Of a stretch of DNA of 64,000 bases, positions 29,455 through 43,417 are shown piece by piece; position 1 is the first letter of the stretch, and each line of letters opens with the position of its first letter. Source of the stretch: Actinobacteria bacterium IMCC26103 (GTDB lineage Bacteria; Actinomycetota; Actinomycetes; Nanopelagicales; Nanopelagicaceae). The notes below the pieces were generated by a model that saw nothing but the letters and a program-made list of their open reading frames with translations, ran no database searches and had not been told where the DNA came from. Made by a program: the position numbers and the translations under genes. The DNA is taken from positions 434,001 through 498,000 of the forward strand of contig CP015604.1 in the NCBI GenBank assembly GCA_002284875.1. The letters run 5' to 3'.

Positions 29455-30519
29455 ATGAGCGCTTTTAATACCCGTATTCAACCCATCCGAGATTTGATGA
29501 AAGATAAAGGGTTAGAAGCACTAGTGCTCCGTCGCAACCCTAATTTGGCTTGGGCAATTGCTGGAAGGGCTCACGTGCCAACCACAATAGATGCAGCTTG
29601 TTTTGATTTAGTTATCACACAAGATTCTGCGGCAGCAATTACAAATGTTGTAGAAGCGCCACGATTAATTGCAGAAGAATTCCCATCTGAAATATCGGTT
29701 AAGACAATTCCATGGTCACAAGGCCGTGATCCACTTCTGCCTACTGGGGCCAAGGTCGGTTCCGATCAACCTGGTGGTGAAAGAGTTGATTTAGGTATTG
29801 AGATTGAAATAATTCGCAGCTCATTAATTGCCGAGGATGTGGCTCGCTTTAAAGAGATTTGTACGGATGCAGCAATTGCCCTTGGTGGCGCAATGAAAGA
29901 GGTAAGCCGGACCGATCGTGAAATTGATGTCGCCGGCCTAATAACGAGAGCCTTGTGGCGCGCAAATTTAGAGATTGCTTTTCTAGGGGTTGCTGGCCAA
30001 GATCGTGTTGATAAATTTCGACACCCGCTTCCAACAACTTCTTTGGTGGGCAATCGAGTATCTGCTTCTATCTGCGCAAGGCGGAAAGGTTTAATCGCAT
30101 CTGTAACCCGAATTGTGACCTTTGGTCCGATGGCGCAGGAATCTCTCGCAAAGTATGAAGGTATTTATAAGGTTGAAGGCGCGATGTTCGATGCCACCGT
30201 TGTTGGCAAGGCTTTCTCTGATCCAATTAGCGCAGCCATCGCGGCCTATCCACAAAACGGTTTTGAAAAGGATGAATGGCAGATGCATCATCAAGGCGGT
30301 CCAACTGGCTTTTTGCCGCGCGATTGGCCGGCCAACCTGGGAACAACACGTACGATTGCAGATAATCAACCGATCGCTTGGAACCCAACGGGTGCAGGTT
30401 GGAAGGCTGAAGATACGATCTTGGCCACAAAATCAGAGGTAAAAATCCTCACAAATGACCCAGAATGGCCGACTTTTGTCGTCAATGGTCGGACCAGACC
30501 TTTCTTGCTTCAAAGATAA
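29455..30519 (+). CDS. M24/creatinase-like protein without metal ligands
   Basis: 354 residues with the pita-bread fold pattern: an N-terminal creatinase-type domain (about 1-120, RIQPIRDLMKDKGLEALVL) and a C-terminal catalytic-like domain. The central His is kept in HHQGGPTGFLP (about 281), but the aligned metal sites of M24 peptidases are replaced: ICARRKG where DxG is expected, ASVTR where SDxTR is expected, and WNP where xEP is expected. So it is not a normal metallopeptidase; creatinase-like C-N hydrolase or a binding role is possible. It precedes the sulfosugar genes on the same strand and its last codons contain a FadR-like palindrome, so it may belong to that system. Function unknown. 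Confidence 0.65.
   Translation: MSAFNTRIQPIRDLMKDKGLEALVLRRNPNLAWAIAGRAHVPTTIDAACFDLVITQDSAAAITNVVEAPRLIAEEFPSEISVKTIPWSQGRDPLLPTGAKVGSDQPGGERVDLGIEIEIIRSSLIAEDVARFKEICTDAAIALGGAMKEVSRTDREIDVAGLITRALWRANLEIAFLGVAGQDRVDKFRHPLPTTSLVGNRVSASICARRKGLIASVTRIVTFGPMAQESLAKYEGIYKVEGAMFDATVVGKAFSDPISAAIAAYPQNGFEKDEWQMHHQGGPTGFLPRDWPANLGTTRTIADNQPIAWNPTGAGWKAEDTILATKSEVKILTNDPEWPTFVVNGRTRPFLLQR
30486..30496. promoter_or_regulatory. FadR-like palindrome TGGTCGGACCA (candidate operator)
   Basis: Perfect 11-base palindrome inside the last codons of the M24-like gene, about 140 bases before the isomerase start. It matches the FadR-subfamily pattern TGGTnnnACCA and resembles the three operator-like sites of the island. 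As it lies in coding sequence, chance is a real alternative. Confidence 0.35.
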
Positions 30520-30612
30520 CCCCAGTACCAACTCATAACGCTCTCATAACAACGCATAAAACGCCCTTTTATCATTGACTCTAGGGTGTGCCCAGTGGCA
30601 CGCTCTGCCAAG

Positions 30613-30625
30613 AGGTCTTACCACT
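30613..30625 (+). promoter_or_regulatory. Candidate GntR operator before the isomerase operon
   Basis: AGGTCTTACCACT, 9 bases before the ATG. The block CAAGAGGTCxxACCACT is shared with the site before suyA, and the core with the site before the Gfo/Idh gene. It overlaps an inverted repeat CCAGTGG (30592-30598) / CCACTGG (30621-30627). TTGACT at 30575-30580 could be a -35, but I see no good -10. Direct repeats CTCATAAC lie at 30532 and 30543. Confidence 0.6.
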
Positions 30626-30634
30626 GGAGGCATT

Positions 30635-32035
30635 ATGAGCACTGTTGCTCTCGTCGCGTTAGCGCGTCCTACCTTCGATCTCACATGCGCCCAAGCCAAT
30701 TTTGATAGCGCTCGCGCTTTATTAATAGAACTCGGTGCGACAGTGGTCGGACCAGATCAACTTGTTATGACAGTGGACGATGTTGCTGCGGTGAAACTAC
30801 CGAGCGCTGATCTGCACATTTTATTTATGGCCTCATTTTCTGATGCGTCACCAGCAGTTGAGCTCTTTGGAAAAGTAAAGGGTCCTGTCCTGGGTTGGTC
30901 TATGCGCGAACCGGGCGAAGTTGGAGAAAGGCTGAAATTAAATTCGATGTGCGGTGTTAATTTGGCTGCGCACGCACTGATGGATGCTGGGCAATCTATT
31001 CGTCACATCCATGGCAACGCTGATGAAGCAAAGGTGAGAAGCGCAATTAAAGATGCGCTCAATGGCAAACTCCCCGAGGCAAATACGCCGAAATCTAAAG
31101 TTGGCGAACTCGGATCCGAAAGCGAAGTTACAAAATCACTCGCCTGGCTAAAAGGTAAGAAAATTGGCGCAGTTGGCGAAGCGCCTGTGGGATTTACGCC
31201 ATGTGTTTTTGATGGTGAAGAATTACGTAAATACTTTGGATTAGACGTTCGGGCGATAACGATAGATAGCGCGTTCGGCAGAATTGCAGAAGTGAAAGAG
31301 GAGCAACGCGAACTAGCTTACGCTGGAGCGCTTGCCGCTCAACCATCACTTGCTTCTGTAAATGTAGATGAGGCAAAGAAAGTTTATGGAGTAGAAGTTG
31401 CCCTTGATGAGTGGCGGGCAGAAGAGTCACTAGATGCCATTGCAATTCGTTGTTGGCCAGAATTTCCAACTGATTTAGGAGCATGTATCTGCTCTTCTCT
31501 TGGCCGGCTCTCAGACCGCGGGACAGTTACTACTTGCGAACGTGACGTACTTGGCGCAGTAACGATGTTGGTCTGTGAATCACTTGGCTCAGATCTAAAT
31601 TATTTAGTAGATATTGTTGATCTAGATGCCGAAAAAGGTTTAGTACGTCTTTGGCACTGCGGATCTGCGGCAACAAAATTGGCAGCCGATCCAGAGAACG
31701 CTTCTCAATCAACCCACTGCAATCGCAAGTTAGGCGTTGCAGGTAATTTTCCGCTCAAGACCGGACCAGTAACTCTGTTCCGGATTGATCGGGATGTAGA
31801 TCCGAGCAACCGCACGGGTTTACGCATGGTTGTGAGCCGAGGGGAATCAATCCCTGCTCCCAATCACTTCCAAGGAAATACCGCAACGGTTATCACTGAA
31901 CCTGATGCCGCTGCGTTAGTGAATGGAATAGTCACTGGCGGATATCCGCATCATCTAGTCATCTCGTGGATAGATGTGCGACCAGGTATTCGTCAGATGG
32001 CAAAGATGTTAGGGATACCCCTCACGGAATGGTAA
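30635..32035 (+). CDS. L-fucose isomerase-family sugar isomerase (candidate sulfoquinovose isomerase)
   Basis: 466-residue aldose-ketose isomerase of the FucI/AraA-like fold. Family stretches: GWSMREPGEVGERLKL (about 88-103), the block RCWPEFPTDLGACICSSLGR (about 270-289), TCERDVLGAVTMLV (about 296-309, metal-binding Glu) and the C-terminal GGYPHHLVISW (about 436-446, His). Start: ATG with GGAGG six bases before it; the frame upstream runs through the operator and is rejected. It heads the operon with the sugar ABC importer, kinase and YihT-like aldolase. In that setting it could convert sulfoquinovose to sulfofructose, a step done by an unrelated enzyme (YihS) in E. coli. Substrate is inferred from neighbours only; fucose or arabinose enzymes are not nearby. 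Confidence 0.75.
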   Translation: MSTVALVALARPTFDLTCAQANFDSARALLIELGATVVGPDQLVMTVDDVAAVKLPSADLHILFMASFSDASPAVELFGKVKGPVLGWSMREPGEVGERLKLNSMCGVNLAAHALMDAGQSIRHIHGNADEAKVRSAIKDALNGKLPEANTPKSKVGELGSESEVTKSLAWLKGKKIGAVGEAPVGFTPCVFDGEELRKYFGLDVRAITIDSAFGRIAEVKEEQRELAYAGALAAQPSLASVNVDEAKKVYGVEVALDEWRAEESLDAIAIRCWPEFPTDLGACICSSLGRLSDRGTVTTCERDVLGAVTMLVCESLGSDLNYLVDIVDLDAEKGLVRLWHCGSAATKLAADPENASQSTHCNRKLGVAGNFPLKTGPVTLFRIDRDVDPSNRTGLRMVVSRGESIPAPNHFQGNTATVITEPDAAALVNGIVTGGYPHHLVISWIDVRPGIRQMAKMLGIPLTEW

Positions 32036-32073: not shown

Positions 32074-33522
32074 ATGATGAAAACTCAAGGAAATAAATCC
32101 TTCAGTGCGCGTCGCCTTGGTGCAGTAGCAGCGGTTGCTTTCGCAATAGTTGCAACAACGCTACCTTCGGCTCTCGCTGCTGGAGAGGTATTAGGAAAGG
32201 CTTGTACTCTCGAAGGAGTCTCAACAGGTACAAGTTCAAAATCATTAGTCTGCGTAGCAGGCTCAAGCGGAAAGCTCACCTGGCAAAAGGTTCGCCTTGG
32301 TTCAAGTATTGGAGCGCCAATCGCCGAGATAACTCCACCACAAGGAAGTATTGAATTCTGGCACTATCGTCCAGAAGATAAAGCAACCTTCGAAAAAATA
32401 ATTGCAAATTACGAAGCAAAATACCCAGGAACAAAGATCACACAGGTAGTCAAAACAACAACTGATTACAACGCAACTGCACGTGTTCAGATCCTGGCTA
32501 ACCCAAAGGCAGCTCTATTTGCTTCAGCTCGTGGTTCAATCTTTAACGACTTCGTTAAGAGTGGACTTACTGCAGATCTCTCCAACGAGCGCTTTGTGAA
32601 GCGTAACTTGGTTGCTAAAGGCCTAACCGCCGGCACGGTTGACGGTAAAGTTCTCGGAGTTCCTTATCACTATCTCTTTAACAACCCGGTTTATAACACT
32701 GAACTTTGGGCAAAAGAGAAGTGGTCAATTCCTAAGAACCTAACTGGTTGGGTTTCATGGTGTAAAGATGCTAAAGCTAAGGGTTATGTACCTCTAGCTT
32801 GGCCAGGTGCAACTCGTGGACAAGCAGCGCAGATTTCAAACTCTGCATTGATGAACTCAGCTGCTGACTACAACACACTCTCTGATAATCTTGCCGATCT
32901 AAACTCAGGAAAGATTGATCTAACATCTACCTGGTTTAAGGGTGTTGCAGATATCTACGTCAAACTTCGTAACGCAGGTTGCTTCCCAGATAACCCAACT
33001 GGTGTAACAGAAGCTGCTGCATACAACTTGTTTGCCACAGGCAAATCACCAATTCTTCCTACCGGTACATTCTCAATGGGATCTATTAAGGCGCTAAGCC
33101 CAGCGTTGACCGGCAAGATGCAGTTGATGAGCATGGTTCTAACAGACGGCAAAGTTGTTGCTGAAGGAATCATGAATAACACCTTCAACCTCAGCGTTAA
33201 CGCTAAGGCAAATCCAATTGACCAGCGGATCGCAAAATCCTTCTTGTCATATTTGGCGACAGGTCCAGTGGCAGCGATTTATTCAGTAGCGACGACACAA
33301 CACTTGAACGTGCTGGATATTGACTATTCAGCAAACGTTGATTTGCTGAATACATCTTCCTTCCAGGGCAAGAACACAATGCTTGCTCCTCGTTTCTTGA
33401 TTCTGAACACTTCAGTTTCAGATCTAACGCAGGATGCTCTCATTCAAATCGTTGGTGGCAAGAGCCCAGACGATGTTCTGCCTGATTTCTCCAAGCAGAT
33501 CAAGCAGAAACTGGCGGGCTGA
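32074..33522 (+). CDS. Sugar ABC transporter solute-binding protein
   Basis: 482-residue extracellular binding protein, family 1 type. Signal peptide about 1-35 (cleavage near SALA|AGEVLG; no lipobox Cys). Residues about 38-72 form a small extra module, GKACTLEG...SLVCVAGSSGKLTWQK, with two cysteines, also found in the M23-like protein at 62.4 kb. The binding domain begins near GSIEFWHYRPEDKATFEKII (about 90) and continues with typical periplasmic-binding stretches such as LGVPYHYLFNNPVYNTELWA. Two permease genes follow, but no ATPase gene; a shared MsmK/UgpC-type ATPase elsewhere is likely. Context suggests sulfoquinovose or its glycosides as cargo. Confidence 0.88.
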   Translation: MMKTQGNKSFSARRLGAVAAVAFAIVATTLPSALAAGEVLGKACTLEGVSTGTSSKSLVCVAGSSGKLTWQKVRLGSSIGAPIAEITPPQGSIEFWHYRPEDKATFEKIIANYEAKYPGTKITQVVKTTTDYNATARVQILANPKAALFASARGSIFNDFVKSGLTADLSNERFVKRNLVAKGLTAGTVDGKVLGVPYHYLFNNPVYNTELWAKEKWSIPKNLTGWVSWCKDAKAKGYVPLAWPGATRGQAAQISNSALMNSAADYNTLSDNLADLNSGKIDLTSTWFKGVADIYVKLRNAGCFPDNPTGVTEAAAYNLFATGKSPILPTGTFSMGSIKALSPALTGKMQLMSMVLTDGKVVAEGIMNNTFNLSVNAKANPIDQRIAKSFLSYLATGPVAAIYSVATTQHLNVLDIDYSANVDLLNTSSFQGKNTMLAPRFLILNTSVSDLTQDALIQIVGGKSPDDVLPDFSKQIKQKLAG

Positions 33523-33623: not shown

Positions 33624-34472
33624 ATGGGTGCGCCCGCGCTAATCCTCTTTCTCGCTTTCTATCTCTACCCTGCTTTACAGAACTTACAATTTGCAACTCG
33701 TCGCTGGGATGGAATTACAGAGCCTGAAAACGTGGGCTTTAGAAACTTCACCAACTTGCTCACGAACGATGATCTCTTTTATAAAACTCTTGGGAACAAT
33801 ATTGAATTCACTTTCTTAGTTGTTATATTTCAAACGGCGCTAGCCCTGTTATTCGCGGTGTATCTAGTGAAAAATACAAAAACAACTATCGCGCTTCGCA
33901 CTCTCTATTTCTTTCCAACCATTCTCTCTTCTGTCTCTGTCGGAATGATCTGGCTCTTCTTATATGACCCTAATTTCGGAGCGATAAACCTTTTCTTTAA
34001 GAGTATTGGCCTTCCGTCTTTTGCGCTTAATTGGCTGGGAAGCGAGACCAGTGCTCTCTATGCAATTGCCTTTACGCAGGTTTGGTTCCATACCGGACAG
34101 ATGATGGTTGTCTACATCGCAGGTTTGCAGCAAATTCCTAAAGAGCTTTACGAGGCTGCTGAAGTAGATGGTGCATCTCGTTGGAAGCAATTTACAAAAG
34201 TAACATGGCCAATGGCTTTGCCTACAACCTTGGTGGTGATGGCATATACAACAATCCAATCTTTCCGTGCCTTTGACTTAATCATGGTTATGACCAACTC
34301 CACTGCGGGTCCAAATAACTCAACAAGCATCTTCAGCACTTTGGTCTATTTCACGCTCTTTAATGAGCTGCGTCTGGGATATGCAGCAGCTCAAACAATA
34401 TTTATGGTCTTAACTCTGATAGCGATTACTTGGCTACAACGTCGCGCTTTTAGCGGTAGATATGAGAAGTGA
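33624..34472 (+). CDS. Sugar ABC transporter permease 1 (MalF/UgpA type)
   Basis: Inner-membrane permease of the sugar importer; six helices, with the EAA loop EAAEVDGASRWKQFTKVTWP near residues 173-192 that contacts the ATPase. From ATG 33624 it has 282 residues, but the start is doubtful: no ribosome site precedes it and it begins almost inside helix 1. The same frame is open upstream to the stop of the binding-protein gene, adding a Lys/Arg-rich tail (QKKRKKDSLVYYV) that looks like a normal permease N-terminus, yet it has no ATG, GTG or TTG; only ATT (33522) or CTG (33519) at the TGATT junction. That extension would be translated through the stem-loop. Confidence 0.85.
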   Translation: MGAPALILFLAFYLYPALQNLQFATRRWDGITEPENVGFRNFTNLLTNDDLFYKTLGNNIEFTFLVVIFQTALALLFAVYLVKNTKTTIALRTLYFFPTILSSVSVGMIWLFLYDPNFGAINLFFKSIGLPSFALNWLGSETSALYAIAFTQVWFHTGQMMVVYIAGLQQIPKELYEAAEVDGASRWKQFTKVTWPMALPTTLVVMAYTTIQSFRAFDLIMVMTNSTAGPNNSTSIFSTLVYFTLFNELRLGYAAAQTIFMVLTLIAITWLQRRAFSGRYEK

Positions 34473-34481
34473 GGCTACGAA

Positions 34482-35297
34482 ATGATTTTTAAGAGTACTC
34501 GAATTTTTGCACTTCTTACCTTCGCTGCCTTAATCCTAGTTCCATCTCTAATTGTAGTTTTGGGATCATTTAAAACTGATGCTGAGGTTTATAACAAACC
34601 ACTTTCTTTACCAGAAAATTGGAATTTTGATAATTACCGTAGGTTACTTAGTGAGAGTGACCTTGATGTTGCTTTCCGCAATAGCATAATGGTGACGGTC
34701 ACTTCAGTAGCCCTGACGCTACTATTTGCCAGTATGGCTTCATTCGCGATTGCGCGAATGATTACAATCTCTGGAAAAGTTCTGGCCACACTTTTCGCTT
34801 TTGGGCTTGCCATACCCGCTCAGATTAATTTAGTGCCTGTCTATTATATGTTTCAAAAATTGGGGCTGACGAACTCGTTTATAGGTTTAATAATTATAAA
34901 TGTAACCACAACATTGCCAATTTCTATATTTATTTTAACGGCGTTCTTCCGCGAGATTTCTAAGGATATGTATGAAGCTTCAGAAGTTGATGGTGCTTCG
35001 CCTCTTAGAGTTTATCGTTCTATAGCATTGCCACTATCACGTCCCGCGATGGGAGCAACATCAATATTCCTATTTGTTATCAACTGGAATGATCTGCTGT
35101 GGCCACTACTTCTTATTCAACAGCCTGAGAAGAAAACACTACCGCTTGCAATGTTGGCATATCGAGGAGAATATTTCGTTAGTTTCTCAATGTTGTTCAC
35201 GGCCGTGATGGTAGCCTCACTTCCGATGGTAATCATGTACCTATTTATGCAACGCTCATTTATTGCTGGCTTAACAGCCGGAGCGGTGAAAGGTTGA
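34482..35297 (+). CDS. Sugar ABC transporter permease 2 (MalG/UgpE type)
   Basis: Partner permease of 271 residues with six helices; EAA loop EASEVDGASPLRVYRSIALP near residues 165-184. N-terminal helix about 7-30, then a periplasmic loop DAEVYNKPLSLPENWNFDNY typical of MalG homologues. It starts 9 bases after permease 1 and ends 3 bases before the GntR gene, so transporter and regulator share a transcript. Confidence 0.9.
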   Translation: MIFKSTRIFALLTFAALILVPSLIVVLGSFKTDAEVYNKPLSLPENWNFDNYRRLLSESDLDVAFRNSIMVTVTSVALTLLFASMASFAIARMITISGKVLATLFAFGLAIPAQINLVPVYYMFQKLGLTNSFIGLIIINVTTTLPISIFILTAFFREISKDMYEASEVDGASPLRVYRSIALPLSRPAMGATSIFLFVINWNDLLWPLLLIQQPEKKTLPLAMLAYRGEYFVSFSMLFTAVMVASLPMVIMYLFMQRSFIAGLTAGAVKG

Positions 35298-35300
35298 AAA

Positions 35301-36014
35301 ATGAGCGCAGTCTCACCTATCGCCCCGCAGCGTGCATCACGAATTGCCACTCAATTAGTTGAACTTATTGAAGTTCAGAAACTTAGACCAAATGATCGCC
35401 TGCCATCGGAGCGAGCGTTGGCTGAACTACTCGCGGTGAGCCGGCCCTCTTTGCGTGAGGCTCTACATATTTTGCAAGCACAGGGCTATGTCCAGATAAA
35501 GCATGGTCAAGGAACTTTTGTTCAAGAACCTATAGTCGCCCAGGAACTCCGCGCATCCATGATGGCTACGGCCCATGGTTTAAATGAACTCTTCGATGCC
35601 CGTGAGGTCCTAGAAGTACCTGCTGGAAAGTGGGCAGCTGCAAAGGCTTCCAAAGAAGATATACGTTTATTGCGAGCCACTCTTAATCAAATTGAAACCG
35701 TTACGTCAGTAAATCCAATTGATTATGACCAATTACAAATCCTAGATGCTAAATTCCATTTAACTATCGTGGGAATAGCGGGCAATAGATTTATAAATCA
35801 GACTTTGCACGTCCTGCAAGATGTGATGAAAATGTCGATGGAAACAACTTTGCGTTTGCCAGGACGATCAGATGTTTCAAAATTTGAACACAATTTGATT
35901 CTAGATGCTATAGAAGCTGGAGACGGAGAATTAGTATCAAAATTGACACTTCAGCATATTTCAGGAGCGCGCGCAGTTGCTTTAGCCGATGCCAAAGAAA
36001 AGAATGATCGTTGA
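35301..36014 (+). CDS. GntR-family regulator, FadR subfamily
   Basis: 237 residues: winged helix-turn-helix at about 10-72 (RPNDRLPSERALAELLAVSR then SLREALHILQAQGYVQIKHG) and a helical FCD ligand domain at about 85-225, with metal-site residues in DAKFHLTI (about 150-157) and the late His in LTLQHISGARA (about 219). Such proteins bind TGGTnnnACCA-like operators and release DNA when they bind an acid or sugar-acid-type metabolite. Three such sites lie before the isomerase, Gfo/Idh and suyA genes, so this is probably the island's own regulator. The effector may be a pathway intermediate such as SQ, SFP or sulfolactate; this is inference. One-stop overlap with the kinase gene. Confidence 0.88.
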   Translation: MSAVSPIAPQRASRIATQLVELIEVQKLRPNDRLPSERALAELLAVSRPSLREALHILQAQGYVQIKHGQGTFVQEPIVAQELRASMMATAHGLNELFDAREVLEVPAGKWAAAKASKEDIRLLRATLNQIETVTSVNPIDYDQLQILDAKFHLTIVGIAGNRFINQTLHVLQDVMKMSMETTLRLPGRSDVSKFEHNLILDAIEAGDGELVSKLTLQHISGARAVALADAKEKNDR

Positions 36015-36904
36015 GCAGTTTTGAAGTTGTTTGTCTTGGAATAATTACAATTGACACGATCGCTCTTGTAGATCAATATCCCGAGGAAGATGAACGGGTT
36101 CTGGCCAAAGAAATTATCCGCTCTGGAGGTGGACCTGCCGCTGTCGCCGCCGTAACGCTAAGCCGGCTAGGAGTATCAACGGCTATCGCGGGAACTATCG
36201 GAGATGACCAAGATGGCGCTGAAGTTTTAAAGATTTTTGCTCGCGAAGGCGTGGATACTTCAGGGATATCTGTTGGATCAAGTGCGACGTCAGGAAGCGT
36301 AATAGTCGCATCTTTAGAAAATAACTCAAGAGCAATTAGTACGCGCCAACCCATGCAACAAGTGGCGTTAAACCCTGCAGCCAAGAAAATGATAAGTAAA
36401 GCAAAATGGCTTCATGTAGACCATGTTGGGATTAAGCAATTACAGGCTGAAAAGATTATGCGTGGAGCTGGTCCAAAAATATCCTTTGATGCTGGATATA
36501 ACGTCGCTGACTTTGATGCTTCGCAAGTGGATTTATTTGTTCCAACGGATAAACAAATGGAGTTGCGTTTTCCAGGCTTGAAGCTAGCTGCTGCAGTCGA
36601 ACGTGATGCTATTAATTCAAAGAACGTGACCGTTGCCACGCAAGGATCTTCCGGAAGTACTGGATATTCCAACGAATCCGGACTGGTGCAGGCAGATGGT
36701 TTTAAGGTTGATGTGGTCAGCACTCTAGGAGCTGGCGACGTTTTTCATGGTGCGCTTCTAGCTCAAGTGATTCAAGGTTATAACTTGGCAGATTCGCTTG
36801 TACGAGCAAATGCAGTTGCCGCACTTTCTTGTCGCGGCCTGGATGGACAGTCGATGATTCCAAATACAGTCGAGTTAAATTCATTCCTAAAGGAGAAGTC
36901 ATGA
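36011..36904 (+). CDS. PfkB-family sugar kinase, YihV-like (candidate sulfofructose kinase)
   Basis: 297-residue ribokinase-fold kinase. N-terminal substrate motif SGGGPAAVAAVTLSRLG (about residues 36-52) and the C-terminal ATP/anion motif FKVDVVSTLGAGDVFHGALL (about 231-250, catalytic Asp in GAGD) strongly recall E. coli YihV, the 6-deoxy-6-sulfofructose 1-kinase, as I remember it; the end AALSCRGLDGQSMIPN also matches its glycine-rich tail. Residues I recall as sulfonate contacts in YihV are not clearly kept, so substrate is not proven. TTG start overlaps the GntR stop; its last four bases overlap the aldolase ATG. Confidence 0.8.
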   Translation: MSSFEVVCLGIITIDTIALVDQYPEEDERVLAKEIIRSGGGPAAVAAVTLSRLGVSTAIAGTIGDDQDGAEVLKIFAREGVDTSGISVGSSATSGSVIVASLENNSRAISTRQPMQQVALNPAAKKMISKAKWLHVDHVGIKQLQAEKIMRGAGPKISFDAGYNVADFDASQVDLFVPTDKQMELRFPGLKLAAAVERDAINSKNVTVATQGSSGSTGYSNESGLVQADGFKVDVVSTLGAGDVFHGALLAQVIQGYNLADSLVRANAVAALSCRGLDGQSMIPNTVELNSFLKEKS

Positions 36905-37782
36905 GAGCACCTCTTACGAACTTAGCGCGCCCATCTGGTGCTCTAGCAATGGTCGCAGTAGATCAACGGGAAGCGCTACGCGGCATGTTTGCCTCACATC
37001 AAAGTACACCCGTACCCGATTCGCAGTTAACTCAGTTTAAGGTTGATGTCGCACGAGAGCTGTCACCTTTTGCATCTGCTTTGCTTGTGGATCAAGAATT
37101 TGGAATTGATGCGATTATTGATCAAAAGGCGTTAAAGGGAAATTGTGGATTGATTGCTGCTGCCGATTTATTGGTAGGGCCTCCCGGTGGTGCTGCGACT
37201 GATACCGCGGTAGATCCAGATGTTGATCCAATCAGAATGCGTGACATTGATAGCGTTGGACTTAAATTTCTTGTTCTTTGGCGAAACGATGAATCACCCG
37301 ATGTCCGCGCAAAGTTAGTTGCCGAATTTAATAAGTTATGTCAGGTATCTGGACTTCCATCCATCATTGAAATTATCGTAAAGCCGCCAACTGATTCATC
37401 ACGATCTTTTGATCGCGAGGAAGAGCTAATTATTGCCGCACGTGAAGCCGCTACTTGGAAACCAGATTTATATAAGGCCGAAGTGCCATTCCACGGCGAA
37501 GGCGATCAATCATTAATTACTAAAAATGCTGAGCGAATCTCTGAGGCGATTGGTTCCCCTTGGGTTGTTTTATCAAATGGTGTAAAGCAACCGTTTTTTA
37601 ACGATGCGGTGAAAGCATGTGCAATCGGGGGAGCAAGTGGATTCCTTGCCGGCAGAGCGGTTTGGGCCGATATCGTCGGTGCCCCCGATATTCCAAAGGC
37701 GCTGCGCGAAATCTCTATTCCGCGCTTAGAAAAGCTCGCTGAAACTGTTGATAAATATGCCAAGCCATGGAGCAGTTGGTAA
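36901..37782 (+). CDS. yihT: Class I aldolase, YihT-like (candidate sulfofructose-phosphate aldolase)
   Basis: 293-residue TIM-barrel aldolase of the LacD/YihT group. Resemblance to E. coli YihT is strong along the chain: RPSGALAMVAVDQREALRGM (10-29), SPFASALLVDQEFG (55-68), LKFLVLWRNDES, the Schiff-base Lys in DLYKAEVPFHGEG (Lys192), WVVLSNGV and ASGFLAGRAVWADIVG (Arg252, in the position of the anion-binding Arg of YihT as I recall it). It should cleave sulfofructose 1-phosphate to DHAP and 3-sulfolactaldehyde. The ATG at 36901 overlaps the kinase stop; 72 bases of upstream open frame lie in the kinase. The Gfo/Idh gene converges with no gap. Confidence 0.85.
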   Translation: MRAPLTNLARPSGALAMVAVDQREALRGMFASHQSTPVPDSQLTQFKVDVARELSPFASALLVDQEFGIDAIIDQKALKGNCGLIAAADLLVGPPGGAATDTAVDPDVDPIRMRDIDSVGLKFLVLWRNDESPDVRAKLVAEFNKLCQVSGLPSIIEIIVKPPTDSSRSFDREEELIIAAREAATWKPDLYKAEVPFHGEGDQSLITKNAERISEAIGSPWVVLSNGVKQPFFNDAVKACAIGGASGFLAGRAVWADIVGAPDIPKALREISIPRLEKLAETVDKYAKPWSSW

Positions 37783-38886
37783 TTAACCCCAAAGCTCTTT
37801 GATTTCAACAACGCGACCTTCATTGATGCTTTTGTGAGCGGCAAGCCCGGTAACAACGCTAGTTACGCCATCAAGCAAAGTTACTTCTGCTGGAGTTGAA
37901 TTAAGAATTGCATCACGGAACTTCACATGTTCAATGTATGAGGCTCCATAGTGATGTCCCATGTACTTCACGTCGTAATTATGGACAATTTTTACTTCGC
38001 TTCCACGAGCTCGGCTGGCGCCTTGTGCCCAGTGGGAGAGATCACCGACTGAATCACGTCGTGTTGCCTTAATGGTTTGTGATGGCAAGAAAGATTCGAT
38101 CTTTCCTTTATCTCCGACAATTGTCAGGATTTCTTTATCGAAAGATCCCTCGGCAAACATGCAGAGATCGAGCATGCCACGCGCGCCGCTAGCGTATTCC
38201 AGAATTACATATGCGTTATCTAGCATATTTGCTTGCCGTCCATCATATTTTTCATCAAGGTGATTTACACTCTGGCCACCAGATGCAAAAACTCGGATTG
38301 GCTGTTCTCCCAAAACTAAATCCATCAGATTGAAATAATGGCAACATTTCTCAACCAAAGTGCCACCAGTGCGTTCGGCGAATCGATTCCAGTTATCAAT
38401 TTTCGGATAAAAAGGTTCTCGGTGTTCGCGTATTGATATTTGGTGAATCTTGCCGGCGCCACCTTCTTTAGCTCTTGCAATGGCTTCAGTGACCGGTGGC
38501 ATAAATCGATATTCCAAACCCATCCAGGTCATGGCACTTCGCTTGGCATCCCAATCGAGGATAGATTTTAAATCTGAAATTGTTGTTGCTAGAGGCTTTT
38601 CAACAAAGACAGCCAAATTGGTAGCGAGAGCATCTTTCAAGATGGCCGCATGTGTGTCATTTGGGGTAGCGATGATTACGGCATCGATTAACCCCGAGTC
38701 TAAAAGATCGCGATGGTCGCTAAAGGCCTTCGCCCCCGGCGCCATTTCAAGGGCCGCCGCGATCGATGGGCTGTGCGAGTCACTGATCCCCGTGACGGTT
38801 GCGCCCCCCATCACCTTGATATTGGAAATATGCTCGCGCCCCATGCTTCCAACGCCGATCACGCCGTAACGAAGCTCGCTCTTCAT
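37783..38886 (-). CDS. Gfo/Idh/MocA oxidoreductase (candidate NAD-dependent sulfoquinovosidase)
   Basis: 367 residues: Rossmann domain with GVIGVGSMGREHISN (about 8-22) and the family EKP motif in VFVEKPLATT (about 92-101), then the Gfo/Idh C-terminal domain with KCCHYFNLMDLVLGE (about 180-194). Family members oxidise sugars, but some use NAD as a catalytic cofactor to hydrolyse glycosides; such a Gfo/Idh-type sulfoquinovosidase (CAZy GH188) is known from actinobacterial sulfoquinovose clusters. No classical GH31 sulfoquinovosidase is in the window, which makes that role attractive but unproven; a sulfoquinovose or inositol dehydrogenase is the alternative. Start: ATG 38886 lies six bases after a TAACCT box; GTG 38892 is less likely. 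An operator-like site covers that box. Confidence 0.75.
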   Translation of the reverse strand: MKSELRYGVIGVGSMGREHISNIKVMGGATVTGISDSHSPSIAAALEMAPGAKAFSDHRDLLDSGLIDAVIIATPNDTHAAILKDALATNLAVFVEKPLATTISDLKSILDWDAKRSAMTWMGLEYRFMPPVTEAIARAKEGGAGKIHQISIREHREPFYPKIDNWNRFAERTGGTLVEKCCHYFNLMDLVLGEQPIRVFASGGQSVNHLDEKYDGRQANMLDNAYVILEYASGARGMLDLCMFAEGSFDKEILTIVGDKGKIESFLPSQTIKATRRDSVGDLSHWAQGASRARGSEVKIVHNYDVKYMGHHYGASYIEHVKFRDAILNSTPAEVTLLDGVTSVVTGLAAHKSINEGRVVEIKELWG

Positions 38887-38892
38887 AGCCAC

Positions 38893-38905
38893 AGGTTAGA
38901 CCACT
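38893..38905. promoter_or_regulatory. Candidate GntR operator over the -10 box of the Gfo/Idh gene
   Basis: AGGTTAGACCACT on the plus strand. Read on the minus strand, its end is TAACCT (38893-38898), a TAnnnT box six bases before the Gfo/Idh ATG. A repressor here would block the promoter directly. The core equals the sites at 30613 and 38966 at 11-12 of 13 positions. Confidence 0.62.
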
Positions 38906-38957: not shown

Positions 38958-38965
38958 CCTGCAAG

Positions 38966-38978
38966 AGGTCAGACCACT
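38966..38978 (+). promoter_or_regulatory. Candidate GntR operator before suyA
   Basis: AGGTCAGACCACT with the palindromic core GGTCAGACC, typical of FadR-subfamily operators. CAAGAGGTC before the core is identical to the isomerase site 8.3 kb away, which is strong evidence that both operons answer to the same regulator. Confidence 0.65.
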
Positions 38979-39010: not shown

Positions 39011-39313
39011 ATGGCAATTACCCCACCGCAGTATCTGCTTCATCATGATGGCGATAACGTCGCCGTTGCGATGATGGATATGCAGCCAGGAACTCTTCAC
39101 GGTCGATCCGTGAAAGAAGGAACAGAGAGCACCGCGGTCTTAAATCACGCGATTCCGCTCGGCCACAAATTTGCCCTTGCAGATATCGCAGAAGGCGAAG
39201 CGATTATTAAATACGGAATCAAAGTTGGTCTCGCATCAGCTGCGATCAAAAAAGGCGATTACATTCACACACACAATATGAGGAGTTATCGATGGGAAGC
39301 AAGCCGCGCTTAA
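39011..39313 (+). CDS. suyA: Sulfolactate sulfo-lyase small subunit SuyA
   Basis: 100-residue SAF-domain protein homologous to the N-terminal part of altronate dehydratase (UxaA). Conserved stretches: LLHHDGDNVAVAMMDM (9-24), IPLGHKFALADIAEGEAIIK (48-67) and HTHNMRSYRWE (86-96). With SuyB it removes sulfite from (R)-3-sulfolactate and gives pyruvate. The split into a small and a large subunit, the SuyB partner and the two sulfolactate dehydrogenases downstream favour SuyA over an altronate enzyme. A GAGAGAGG site lies 10 bases before the ATG. Its end overlaps suyB by 22 bases. Confidence 0.85.
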   Translation: MAITPPQYLLHHDGDNVAVAMMDMQPGTLHGRSVKEGTESTAVLNHAIPLGHKFALADIAEGEAIIKYGIKVGLASAAIKKGDYIHTHNMRSYRWEASRA

Positions 39314-40458
39314 TGGGATACCGCCGCGAAAACGGCGCTATGGGTATCCGCAATCACGTAATTATTCTGCCCCTTGATGACCTGTCAAATGCTGCTGCAG
39401 AAGCTGTAGCAAAAGTCATTCCAGGCACTCTCGCATTGCCACATGCATTCGGACGCCTGCAATTTGGTGAAGATCTAGAGCTGACTTTCAATACTTTAAT
39501 TGGTACTGGCGTAAACGCCAACGTTGCTGCCGTCGTTGTGATCGGTATTGAACCAAAGTGGACACAACGCGTTGCTGATGGAATTGCAAAGACAGGCAAA
39601 CCTGTTGCAGCATTTTCAATCGAAGGCAAAGGTGACCTTCAAGTAATTCAAGAAGCAAGTCGCGTAGCTGCGATGTTCTTACAAGATGCATCTGGCCTAG
39701 AACGTGAAGCAGCCGAAATGGGCGACATGATTATGTCGATCAAATGTGGCGAGTCAGATACAACTTCAGGACTTGGTTCTTGCCCGACTACGTCACAAGC
39801 AGTCGATCGCTGGGTAGCCGCCGGTGGAACGGTCTTCTTCGGCGAGACATCTGAGCTAACCGGTGGCGAACACTTAATCGCTGACCGTTGCATCGACGAT
39901 GCTTGCCGCAATCTATTCCAACTCACTTACGACAATTACATAAAAGTAATTGAAGCAACGGGTGCAAATCTTCTAGGTTCACAGCCAACACAAGGGAATA
40001 TTGCCGGCGGCCTGACAACTATTGAAGAGAAGGCCCTTGGAAATATCGCTAAGACTGGTTCAGTTCCAGTTGTTGGAGTTCTAAAGCCAGCAGAAGCGCC
40101 AGACCCAAAGAAAAAAGGCCTTTACTTTATGGATTCTTCTTCGGCAGCAGCAGAGTGTGTAACTCTGATGGCAGCAGGTGGCGCAGTTATTCACTTGTTC
40201 CCAACGGGACAAGGCAATGTGATTGGTAATCCAATTATCCCCGTCCTGAAGTTAACTGCGAATATTAAGACTGCTAACTCAATGACTGAACACATCGATC
40301 TCGATGTTTCAGGACTATTGCGTTATGAATATGACTTAACCAAAGCTGGCGACATGATGATGGATGTCATTAATCAAACTGTTAACGGACGCCTCTGCAA
40401 GGCGGAAGTTATGGGCCATCGTGAATTTACCTTCACAAAGTTGTACATCTCCGCATAA
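39292..40458 (+). CDS. suyB: Sulfolactate sulfo-lyase large subunit SuyB
   Basis: 388-residue catalytic subunit of the UxaA C-terminal family. The stretches GYRRENGAMGIRNHVIILPL (about 9-28), MSIKCGESDTTSG (about 148-160), FFGETSELTGGE (about 183-194), NIAGGLTTIEEKALGNI (about 233-249), YFMDSSSAAAECVTLMAA (about 278-295) and FPTGQGNVIGNPI (about 304-316) match SuyB as I remember it rather than altronate dehydratase. Cysteines at the CGES site and nearby probably hold iron. Product: pyruvate and sulfite. One-base overlap with the slcC-like gene, so the lyase and dehydrogenases are made together. About 41 kDa, as expected. Confidence 0.87.
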   Translation: MGSKPRLMGYRRENGAMGIRNHVIILPLDDLSNAAAEAVAKVIPGTLALPHAFGRLQFGEDLELTFNTLIGTGVNANVAAVVVIGIEPKWTQRVADGIAKTGKPVAAFSIEGKGDLQVIQEASRVAAMFLQDASGLEREAAEMGDMIMSIKCGESDTTSGLGSCPTTSQAVDRWVAAGGTVFFGETSELTGGEHLIADRCIDDACRNLFQLTYDNYIKVIEATGANLLGSQPTQGNIAGGLTTIEEKALGNIAKTGSVPVVGVLKPAEAPDPKKKGLYFMDSSSAAAECVTLMAAGGAVIHLFPTGQGNVIGNPIIPVLKLTANIKTANSMTEHIDLDVSGLLRYEYDLTKAGDMMMDVINQTVNGRLCKAEVMGHREFTFTKLYISA

Positions 40459-41396
40459 TGATTCTCATCTCTGAGGATGTCTGGGGAACTCCCTTCCAAA
40501 TACTGGAGGGGAGTTTTCCCATTGTCAGAAGCGATGACTTGTGGAAGAACCCAGATGAATTAAAGAATTTAATTAAGGATGCAACAGCTTTGATTGTGCG
40601 AAATAGAACCAAAGTAACTGCAGATGTTATTGCGGCTGCTCCAAATTTAAAGGTGATTGCTCGCGCCGGAGTTGGTCTAGACAATATTGATATCAAAGCT
40701 GCTGATGCAGCAGGCGTTGTAGTCGTTGCCGGACTGGGTGCAAACGCAGTAAGTGTCGGCGAGTTAACTTTAGGTTTGGCTCTATCTCTTTTAAGAAATA
40801 TTCCAGGACATGACTCACTTACTCGTGACGGAAACTGGATTCGCACACCGGGTCGCGAATTATCAGGCCTAACCTGGGGGCTACTTGGTTGCGGCGCAAC
40901 TGCTTTAGCGACCGCGAAGTTACTTCAGGGATTTGGTTGCACAATTATGGGATACGACCCGTACGCCACGAATTTGCAGGGAATCAAGCTAACAACTTTT
41001 GAAGAAGTTTTAAAGCTCAGCGATGTTGTGAGCATTCATATGCCATCTACTGCTGAAACAAACGGTTCCATAAATTCTGAGACTCTCAAGTTAATGAAAC
41101 CTGATGCAGTGATAGTAAATGTTGGACGTGGCGAAGTCATAAACGAAGCAGATTTAATGAGCGCTTTGCAGACAAAGGTAATTGCAGGTGCCGCGCTAGA
41201 TGTTCGCGCGCAGGAACCTCCGATCAAAGGCGAAATGGAAGCCATTCCAAACCTAATTTTGACACCACATGTTGCAGGGATAACCAATGAAAGCCAGTTA
41301 CGAATTAATGAAATACTTGCCTCTAATATCCTGAAAGTTCTTATTAATGAAACAGCAACCCACGCAGTTGGTGCTTTGAAGGTAAGCAGCAACTAA
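40458..41396 (+). CDS. slcC: (S)-Sulfolactate dehydrogenase-like protein (D-2-hydroxyacid dehydrogenase family)
   Basis: 312-residue NAD-dependent 2-hydroxyacid dehydrogenase. NAD loop GLLGCGATALATAKLL (about 140-155) followed by Asp in YDPYA; catalytic Arg in ARAGVGLDNID (about 71-81), Glu in AQEPP (about 253) and His in LTPHVAGI (about 271-278). General family members include phosphoglycerate dehydrogenase; next to suyAB and a ComC-like enzyme it best fits SlcC, which oxidises (S)-sulfolactate to sulfopyruvate. With the next gene it would invert sulfolactate to the (R) form that SuyAB uses. Confidence 0.78.
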   Translation: MILISEDVWGTPFQILEGSFPIVRSDDLWKNPDELKNLIKDATALIVRNRTKVTADVIAAAPNLKVIARAGVGLDNIDIKAADAAGVVVVAGLGANAVSVGELTLGLALSLLRNIPGHDSLTRDGNWIRTPGRELSGLTWGLLGCGATALATAKLLQGFGCTIMGYDPYATNLQGIKLTTFEEVLKLSDVVSIHMPSTAETNGSINSETLKLMKPDAVIVNVGRGEVINEADLMSALQTKVIAGAALDVRAQEPPIKGEMEAIPNLILTPHVAGITNESQLRINEILASNILKVLINETATHAVGALKVSSN

Positions 41397-42403
41397 TGGC
41401 ACAACTCACCGTTGGTTCAGCAATCGACCAAGCAAAATCTTTACTTATTGCTAGCGGAGTTCCCGTGCAAGAAGCGCAAAGTACTGCGCGTTGCATCGTG
41501 GCAAGTGATCGCTGGGGAATAGGCAGCCACGGATTGATGCGACTTCCTTTCTATCTTGCGCGTTTACAAGCCGGAGGCATTAAGCCAGATGCAAAGTTGA
41601 AAATAGTTACTGATCTACCTAGCTTGGTGGTCTTTGATGGTGAAGATGGGCTTGGACATTGGCAACTTCAGAAAGGCGCGGAAGTTGCTGCAGAACGTGC
41701 TCAAAAAAATGGAATTGCAGCTGTCGGCATTGGTCGCTCTAACCATTGTGGCGCTTTGGGAATCTACGTTTGGCCGATGATCAATAAAGGTTTAATCGGT
41801 ATTGCATTCAGTACCGGCCCAGCAGTAATGCCACCGTGGGGCGGGAATTCTCCGCTTCTTTCAACTTCGCCAATCGCTGCGGGGATTCCAACAAATCCTC
41901 CGACGGTAATCGATTTAGCAACGAGCGCGGTTGCAAGAGGAAAAATTCAAGCCAAAGCACAAGCCGGTGCTGAACTTGAACCAGGATGGGCATTTACCAA
42001 AGAAGGTGTTCCAACAACTGATGCCAAAGAAGCACTTGCCGGAATGCTTGCGCCACTCGGTGGAGTAAAGGGATATGCAATTGCAGTCCTTGTGGAATCG
42101 CTAACCGGAATGTTGATTGGACCATCCTTGGCGAAAAATATCCCAGATATGTTCTCGGCGGATCAAGATGCCAAACCACAGGAGATTTCACATTTTATAA
42201 TTGCAATTGATGCTGCAAAGTTATCGGTAGATGGTGAAAATTCAAGAACTTCTGATTTTGTAACTGCCATCACTGATGCTGGAGGACGCATACCTGGATC
42301 AAATCGCGTTAATCCAGAGAATCTAGATAACTCAGACAGCATCACAATCACTGACCAGGTGGCAGATCAGTTATCACAATGGTCAACGAAGTTGGGTATT
42401 TAA
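41396..42403 (+). CDS. comC: (R)-Sulfolactate dehydrogenase ComC-like (malate/lactate dehydrogenase family)
   Basis: 335 residues of the Ldh/ComC type II malate/lactate dehydrogenase family, whose NAD(P)H fold differs from classical MDH. Marks: RWGIGSHGLMRLPFYLARLQ (about 38-57), VGIGRSNHCGALGIYV (about 112-127, catalytic His), IGIAFSTGPAVMPPWGG (about 135-151), and GGVKGYAIAVLVESLTGML (about 220-238). It should reduce sulfopyruvate to (R)-sulfolactate. One-base overlaps with the slcC-like and the exporter genes. Confidence 0.78.
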   Translation: MAQLTVGSAIDQAKSLLIASGVPVQEAQSTARCIVASDRWGIGSHGLMRLPFYLARLQAGGIKPDAKLKIVTDLPSLVVFDGEDGLGHWQLQKGAEVAAERAQKNGIAAVGIGRSNHCGALGIYVWPMINKGLIGIAFSTGPAVMPPWGGNSPLLSTSPIAAGIPTNPPTVIDLATSAVARGKIQAKAQAGAELEPGWAFTKEGVPTTDAKEALAGMLAPLGGVKGYAIAVLVESLTGMLIGPSLAKNIPDMFSADQDAKPQEISHFIIAIDAAKLSVDGENSRTSDFVTAITDAGGRIPGSNRVNPENLDNSDSITITDQVADQLSQWSTKLGI

Positions 42404-43417
42404 ATGATCAAGACAGCGCCAGGACTTGGGCTTATTGCAGCGGTTGTAGCGATCGCTTTTCAAATCCACAATTTCCAACCTGCGATTAGCCCGTTGGCGC
42501 TCTGCGTTGCCTTTGGGTTCGCGATCGCAAACTTTGCGGCGTGGCCAACTTTTGCAACTGCGGGGACAACGCTTGCAAGTAAGAAATTGATGCGGATCGG
42601 CGTAGCGCTACTTGGAGCACAAGTAAGCGTGCTTTCTCTCAAAGCAATTGGAGTAAAGGGAGTTATCACCGTAATTCTTGTTGTAACTTTTACGATCTTT
42701 GGAATTTTGGCGCTCTCCAAATTATTTAAAATGAGTGGCGAACTTGGCCTGCTTATTGGAGTGGGTTTCGGTGTATGTGGAGCAACTGCCGTTGCGGCAA
42801 TTCGTCCACAAACTCGGGCGACGGAAGAAGAAACTTCTTATGCAATCGCATTGATATCTCTCTGCGGCACGCTTTCAATTTTTATTCTGCCATTTCTTGG
42901 CCATTTACTCGGATTATCTGATCAAACTTTCGGCTCTTGGGCCGGTGCTGCAGTACACGATGTTGGTCAAGTAATTGCGACCGCATCTGTCTGGAGTGAT
43001 GATGCAGTAAAATCTGCAGTAGTAATTAAATTAGCTCGCGTCTGCCTATTAGCTCCGATTGTTCTAATCCTTTCTGTTCGTCACCGGCGCTATTTAACTT
43101 CTCTGGCAGCTAACAATGATAAAAAAAATGAGATTACTAACCAGAAAAATAGCAAAGTACCACTGATTCCATTCTTCGTTCTTGGTTTTATCGCGGTTGC
43201 AACAGTTCAAAATTTATTTTCGATACCAACAGAACTTCACGATGCAGTCGTCTTGATTAGCAAATTGCTCTTGGGCGCGGGATTGGTTGCACTTGGGTCC
43301 AGCGTTCGCTGGAAATCAATCCGGGCAATTGGACCGCGTCCAATGATTATGGGGTTGATTGCTTGGGTGATTGTTGCTGGAGTAGCGCTAGCAGCTGTTC
43401 AGATAACTGGGCTTTGA
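42404..43417 (+). CDS. YeiH-type (UPF0324) putative anion exporter
   Basis: 337-residue membrane protein with about ten helices of the YeiH/putative sulfate exporter family. Typical stretches: LMRIGVALLGAQVSVLSLKA (about 62-81), GVGFGVCGATAVAAIRPQTR (about 118-137), EETSYAIALISLCGTLSIFI and AAVHDVGQVIATASVWSDDA (about 179-198). It is co-translated with the sulfolactate genes, which release sulfite, so export of sulfite (or sulfate after oxidation) is the natural reading; transport itself has not been shown for most members. It ends the operon. Confidence 0.82.
   Translation: MIKTAPGLGLIAAVVAIAFQIHNFQPAISPLALCVAFGFAIANFAAWPTFATAGTTLASKKLMRIGVALLGAQVSVLSLKAIGVKGVITVILVVTFTIFGILALSKLFKMSGELGLLIGVGFGVCGATAVAAIRPQTRATEEETSYAIALISLCGTLSIFILPFLGHLLGLSDQTFGSWAGAAVHDVGQVIATASVWSDDAVKSAVVIKLARVCLLAPIVLILSVRHRRYLTSLAANNDKKNEITNQKNSKVPLIPFFVLGFIAVATVQNLFSIPTELHDAVVLISKLLLGAGLVALGSSVRWKSIRAIGPRPMIMGLIAWVIVAGVALAAVQITGL

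Follow-up and report, generated by a model that had tools for sequence, protein, structure and literature searches.

Which enzyme could free sulfoquinovose (SQ), a sulfosugar of plants and algae, from its glycosides in a gene cluster for SQ breakdown that carries no GH31 gene? The question is raised by a stretch of 64,000 nucleotides (the window) from Actinobacteria bacterium IMCC26103, a strain assigned to acI-A4 in the available text of PMC5301498. A Gfo/Idh gene in this cluster had been named as a candidate NAD-dependent sulfoquinovosidase of family GH188, and the original prediction was right in its coordinates and description. The ORF starts with an ATG at 38886, ends with a stop at 37783 and encodes 367 amino acids, with Pfam matches to the GFO_IDH_MocA N-terminal (E 4e-25) and C-terminal (E 7e-28) domains. 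A second in-frame start, a GTG at 38892 two codons upstream, is overlapped by an operator-like site, and the alignment of relatives begins at the ATG.

The predicted arrangement was also found. The gene is divergent from suyA, with 124 bp between them, and converges on the aldolase gene so closely that their stop codons abut at 37782/37783. The absence of a GH31 sulfoquinovosidase held for the whole genome, a single contig of 1,456,516 bp, in which a profile search for the GH31 catalytic domain (PF01055) gave no match; the same search was positive in 6 of 14 control genomes.

Table 1. Features of the sulfoquinovose cluster and their positions in the window.
Feature	Position	Strand	Basis
M24/creatinase-fold protein, usual metal-binding Asp seemingly absent, conserved beside such clusters	29455..30519	+	
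Third operator-like palindrome AGTGGTAAGACCTCT, just upstream of isomerase start	30611..30625	-	
Sulfoquinovose isomerase of SftI/SqvD (fucose isomerase) type, start probably at 30635 rather than 30575	30635..32035	+	NF048012
ABC transporter sugar-binding protein, presumed sulfoquinovoside importer	32074..33522	+	PF01547; presumed substrate
ABC sugar permease	33624..34472	+	conserved in cluster; type read from sequence
ABC sugar permease	34482..35297	+	conserved in cluster; type read from sequence
GntR/FCD regulator, presumed binder of three palindromes	35301..36014	+	PF00392, PF07729
Sulfofructose kinase, YihV-like, PfkB family	36011..36904	+	best solved match 7ag6
Sulfofructose-1-phosphate aldolase, YihT-type	36901..37782	+	7ag1, 7ag7, 1to3
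GH188 NAD+-dependent sulfoquinovosidase (very probable), SqgA-type, Tyr-160 subgroup	37783..38886	-	phmmer to 8qc2/8qc3, residues, tree, fold
Operator-like palindrome AGTGGTCTAACCTGT, just upstream of GH188 start	38891..38905	-	
Operator-like palindrome AGTGGTCTGACCTCT, between GH188 and suyA	38964..38978	-	
Sulfolactate sulfo-lyase small subunit, SuyA-like	39011..39313	+	SAF domain; overlaps suyB
Sulfolactate sulfo-lyase large subunit, SuyB-like	39292..40458	+	PF20629, PF04295; presumed role, from neighbours
D-2-hydroxyacid dehydrogenase, SlcC-like	40458..41396	+	PF02826/PF00389; presumed role, from SlcC/ComC precedent (PMC12421959, available text)
ComC-like L-sulfolactate dehydrogenase	41396..42403	+	NF040650 (best family), 203 bits, below cut-off 500
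YeiH-type putative sulfite/sulfate exporter	42404..43417	+	TIGR00698, PF03601

The Gfo/Idh protein belongs to GH188

Searched with phmmer against PDB chains, the protein matched FlSqgA (8qc2, E 1.4e-103) and ArSqgA (8qc3, E 1.2e-101) best, with 48% identity over residues 4–362 of 367. The third match was 8zn9 (E 5.7e-83), an entry whose title mentions marine sulfoquinovosidases, and the first outside the GH188-type entries was 3ezy (E 7.9e-31). An inositol 2-dehydrogenase gave E 1.7e-21, while the GH109 enzyme 6t2b reached only E 2.5e-6, against 1e-103 for the GH188 structures.

A maximum-likelihood tree of 43 rows separated seven outgroup rows (two PDB chains and five Gfo/Idh paralogues from the same genome) from 36 GH188-type rows (support 96/94), which is the one split to be trusted, because the outgroup branches are very long. 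The GH188-type rows comprised the window protein, sequences from 25 of 50 related loci, seven further genome loci and three PDB chains. On this side the window protein shared one clade with FlSqgA and ArSqgA and did not group with inositol dehydrogenases, in agreement with the GH188 assignment. Its own clade of 20 rows (support 99/100) stands apart from the enzymes that have been characterised and includes one row from an Aquincola-labelled MAG (L064). Among the close relatives, those that carry names belong to the acI actinobacteria, for example Candidatus Planktophila lacus (89%) and IMCC19121 (86%).

The active-site residues of ArSqgA are largely retained. In the alignment, K97, Y126, E154, E179, H183 and H312 correspond to the sugar-contact and catalytic residues Lys107, Tyr136, Glu164, Glu189, His193 and His321, and R156, Y160 and K162 fall at Arg166, Leu170 and Lys172 of the sulfonate site. 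Thus eight of nine positions are identical, including the Arg/Lys pair that a sulfonate pocket had been expected to hold, and the ninth changes from Leu to Tyr at a contact that is made by the backbone. (The residue given as Glu163 in the available text of PMC10755693 falls on 164 under the offset that fits that paper's other residues; 163 is Val.) Across the 36 GH188-type rows these positions are invariant except for Arg166 (35/36, with one Gln) and position 170, with Tyr in 20 rows and Leu in the other 16. The loop P278–T293, which packs on position 170 in the crystal structure, is truncated in the window protein.

The AlphaFold model (mean pLDDT 86.7) was closest to the ArSqgA/FlSqgA entries 8QC2–8QC8 (Z 44.7–45.3, rmsd 1.9–2.1, 345–349 residues aligned) and to 8zn9 (Z 43.9). 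Beyond the sulfoquinovosidases, the best Gfo/Idh entry gave Z 37.8, and GH109 (6t2b), with Z 34.2, lay in the range of ordinary dehydrogenases, far below the GH188 structures. Residues 160–164 and 285–293 have pLDDT below 50, so the model does not confirm the shape of the pocket.

Judged from these comparisons, the gene product is very probably an enzyme of a known kind, one that uses NAD+ to release SQ from glycosides. FlSqgA and ArSqgA (Kaur et al., 2023; PMC10755693, available text) share with it the fold, the catalytic and sulfonate-binding residues and the setting of an SQ cluster without GH31; they differ from it at position 170 and in the intact loop, and the window cluster adds genes for an SftI/SqvD-like isomerase and a sulfolactate sulfo-lyase.

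This reading of the protein is not new. Leu170 occurs in 96.0% of GH188 sequences, and 'Y160' and 'Y158' groups have been singled out, with A0A7D6IM98 of Actinobacteria bacterium IMCC26103 representing Y160 (Backlund and Higgins, 2024; PMC11465081). The window protein is a member of this Tyr-160 subgroup, with which it shares Tyr at residue 160 by number, the truncated loop and a near-identical gene list. New sulfoglycolytic pathways were suggested there for these groups, the activity of the subgroup being, according to the same paper, still to be determined.

The cluster resembles a hybrid sulfo-EMP pathway

The neighbouring genes contain the sulfofructose kinase and sulfofructose-phosphate aldolase that are features of YihS/YihV/YihT-type sulfo-EMP clusters. 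The aldolase matched the YihT structures 7ag1, 7ag7 and 1to3 with E 1e-74 to 2e-71, as against 2e-19 at best for tagatose aldolases, and the kinase matched sulfofructose kinase 7ag6 with E 8e-28, the next solved enzyme giving 2e-18. A YihS-type SQ isomerase (PF07221) was not found for the cluster; the isomerase there is of the fucose-isomerase type, and its sole NCBIfam match was to the SftI SQ isomerase NF048012 (269 bits, cut-off 700). Since YihV and YihT are combined with an SftI/SqvD-type isomerase, the cluster is of a hybrid sulfo-EMP type, which fits the combinations reported from Actinobacteria in the available texts of PMC12890257 and PMC10599462.

The SAF domain of the SuyA-like protein scored 22.1 bits against a cut-off of 21, and suyA adjoins suyB in those related loci that show suyB; the families of the SuyB-like protein also contain altronate/galactarate dehydratases. 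The YeiH-type protein was below the cut-off for TIGR00698 (173 bits, cut-off 232.6) and above that for PF03601, and the ABC sugar-binding protein gave weak matches to sugar-binding proteins. Two upstream TTG starts were set aside: for the isomerase (30575–30634), ATG 30635 is likelier, because an operator-like site and a GGAGG precede it and fall inside the stretch that the TTG would add; for the aldolase (36829–36900), the TTG is probably wrong and ATG 36901 matches the relatives.

Proposed reaction and route to sulfite

The mechanism is transferred by analogy from Kaur et al. (2023; PMC10755693, available text). NAD+ would stay bound to the enzyme as a catalytic cofactor and oxidise C3 of an imported sulfoquinovoside; the aglycone would then be eliminated, water added and C3 reduced again, freeing SQ. 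R156, K162 and the backbone amide at Y160 would hold the sulfonate, while K97, H183, Y126, E154, E179 and H312 would hold and work on the sugar. In the chemistry described there for the characterised enzymes, C3 oxidation by bound NAD+ is followed by the same elimination, water addition and reduction; NAD+ is regenerated, so that the net reaction is hydrolysis, and FlSqgA accepts both alpha and beta glycosides.

The SQ would pass through the isomerase, the YihV-like kinase and the YihT-type aldolase to give DHAP and sulfolactaldehyde. SlcC/ComC and SuyAB would then turn the latter, once oxidised, into sulfite and pyruvate, and the sulfite would leave the cell by the YeiH-type protein. That the gene specifies an intracellular, SqgA-type GH188 sulfoquinovosidase feeding such a route from SQ to sulfite is, taken as a whole, an explanation in which we have high confidence.

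A small freshwater bacterium appears to break SQ down to sulfite by this pathway. The title of PMC5301498 calls the acI lineage the most abundant freshwater Actinobacteria, and the available text of that paper gives 1.35–1.55 Mbp for four acI genomes. If the route operates as proposed, cells with genomes near 1.4 Mb would take sulfolipid headgroups fully to sulfite, and the breakdown of these headgroups would not be shared between two kinds of bacteria; the interest of the GH188 gene lies in this ecological setting. No link of sulfoquinovose to Planktophila or Nanopelagic- names was found in the full texts searched, a limited collection, which does however contain the enzyme subgroup and an acI strain (PMC11465081).

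A related organisation is the tandem sulfofucolytic–sulfolactate sulfolyase pathway of Paracoccus wurundjeri (PMC12421959, available text), in which a single organism likewise couples sulfosugar breakdown to SlcC/ComC and SuyAB. The upper part of that pathway is an Entner–Doudoroff-type sulfofucose route, whereas the window encodes an isomerase, a kinase and an aldolase.

Distribution among related genomes

Among 201 genomes of the family, GH188 occurred in 47 and the isomerase in 45, with both in 44; as raw counts that ignore relatedness, the isomerase was thus present in 44 of 47 genomes with GH188 and in 1 of 154 without. Strong suyB matches were found in 47 genomes, 44 of them with GH188, and all 29 genomes with a strong aldolase match also had GH188, after weak matches had been removed for suyB (6 of 53 genomes, 34–35% identity) and aldolase (3 of 32, 35–36%). 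Some of the loci compared represent the same genome twice (for example L044 and L104, whose contigs are equal in length). In seven more distant GH188-type loci (L075–L081), tblastn detected no other gene of the window's cluster, so GH188 alone is no marker of the cluster.

Of the 18 genomes with GH188 and no YihT-type aldolase, 17 belong to genus g17 and the remaining one to g9. Sister clusters from these genera (L096, L097 and L098 from g17, L099/L100 from g9) contain GH188 with Tyr, the isomerase, the kinase and SuyAB, and the YihT-type aldolase is absent from them. A single DeoC/LacD-family match, outside the cluster, was present in six of six g17 genomes searched; class II FBP aldolase gave no match in five of the six, and only a fragment with a stop in the sixth. 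In one of these loci (L097:2902-18726) the whole cluster is flanked on one side by a gene resembling methionine aminopeptidase and on the other by ribosomal protein genes, as named from their sequences.

The junction between GH188 and the aldolase also varies. No ORF lies between the two genes in the window. In 11 of 28 loci with both (L043, L044, L046, L050, L051, L053, L057, L058, L062, L067 and L083), an ORF on the GH188 strand begins at the 3′ end of GH188 and fills the gap before the aldolase (11095–11964 in L044). The two that were tested, from L044 and L053, belong to the nucleoside-hydrolase family PF01156; the others were likened to it by eye, the L051 copy being incomplete. In isolate LanE43 (L049:11101-18907), a block of apparent sugar-acid genes, with an additional ABC transporter, adjoins GH188, at the place of the aldolase in other relatives.

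Alternative substrates and activities

An ordinary Gfo/Idh dehydrogenase, acting on inositol, glucose or SQ and releasing NADH, would share the fold, and the best NCBIfam family of the protein is indeed inositol 2-dehydrogenase, a GH188 model being absent among its nine NCBIfam matches. However, this match reached 134.6 bits where the family cut-off is 355, both solved outgroup proteins (3ezy and 4hkt) carry other residues at Tyr136, Lys172 and Glu189, and the tree places the outgroup apart, which together make a plain dehydrogenase very improbable.

A GH188-type oxidoreductive glycosidase for another sulfosugar conjugate, differing in aglycone, anomer or epimer (a sulfofucoside, for instance), would be another alternative, Tyr-160 and the truncated loop then marking a shifted specificity. 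The separate, well-supported clade with Tyr at 170 and the shortened loop, the low isomerase score relative to the SQ isomerase cut-off and the nucleoside-hydrolase-like ORF of the 11 loci are in its favour. However, the Glu that holds the C4-OH is kept in all 36 GH188-type rows, and the aldolase and kinase match sulfofructose enzymes best. Sulfofucose in particular is broken down by an oxidative, ED-type route for which the available text of PMC12421959 records no isomerase activity detected in lysate. SQ is the better supported substrate, because aldolase, kinase and isomerase all match SQ or sulfofructose enzymes, and we judge another sulfosugar unlikely. In a broader reading, to which we give little weight, the acI Tyr-160/158 clade would be a specificity variant, with its truncated loop, an M24-fold partner from which the metal ligands seem to be missing and, in part of the relatives, a gene of the nucleoside-hydrolase family at the 3′ end. 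It would open SQ conjugates other than sulfoquinovosyl glycerol and feed a one-cell route from glycoside to sulfite, with sulfolactaldehyde oxidised by a kind of enzyme not yet linked to that step.

Operator-like palindromes

An operator shared with suyA had been proposed, and two copies of AGTGGTCTRACCTST do lie within the 124 bp between GH188 and suyA. Both were conserved in 22 of 22 loci, which were chosen for holding this region: in 20 their 9-bp cores stand at -89 and -16 relative to the ATG of GH188, in the other two they are shifted by 1–8 bp, and the intergenic sequence outside the cores drifts. The third palindrome lies before the isomerase start codon in the window; of 21 scanned loci that have this region in an aldolase-bearing cluster, 19 share it and two (L061 and L110) do not. 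None of the palindromes was seen in five g17/g9 loci scanned. The cluster's GntR/FCD protein is the natural candidate to bind these sites, and one GntR regulator probably controls both the GH188 and the suyA sides.

Without mismatch, the 15-bp pattern occurs at four places in the genome, three of them in the cluster, and the fourth is taken as chance. Allowing up to one mismatch gave 32 matches (28 with one) as against 48 for a reversed-pattern control; because the control was not exceeded, no further operator targets are claimed. The looser core GGTYNRACC occurs eight times in the window (1.9 expected); two of these are named sites, and the third palindrome does not fit this pattern.

Sulfolactaldehyde oxidation and the M24-fold gene

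None of the genome's eight aldehyde dehydrogenase (Aldedh) matches lies in the window, whereas an SLA dehydrogenase is listed for the Y160 cluster in PMC11465081. Family search put names to six of the eight, with L090 covered as a part only. We suspect that the SLA dehydrogenase of that paper is the ComC-like gene. In the available text of PMC12421959, the authors of the sulfofucose pathway likewise report having found no sulfolactaldehyde dehydrogenase. The ALDH closest to the succinate-semialdehyde type (G000:C1:344390-345805) was considered as a candidate; it was found in 146 of 201 family genomes (E <= 1e-120) and, because at least 99 of these are without GH188, it is not tied to the pathway.

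The M24-like protein at the isomerase end of the cluster gave a model (mean pLDDT 83.1) whose fold is that of creatinase (Z 26.8) and of Xaa-Pro peptidases, the E. coli Xaa-Pro aminopeptidase matching at Z 29.2. A metallopeptidase is doubtful here, the Pfam M24 score being below its cut-off and both of what we take to be the metal-ligand Asp positions seemingly replaced. None of the literature matches listed for M24 with sulfoquinovose names sulfoquinovose. M24-fold ORFs stood beside the SQ genes 25 times in 65 related loci scanned (for example L097:3724-4617), many of these loci being short or without that end; the 25 include ORFs in three aldolase-less sister clusters. In these M24-like proteins the residues of the motifs HHQGGPTG and RHPLPT are invariant or nearly so.
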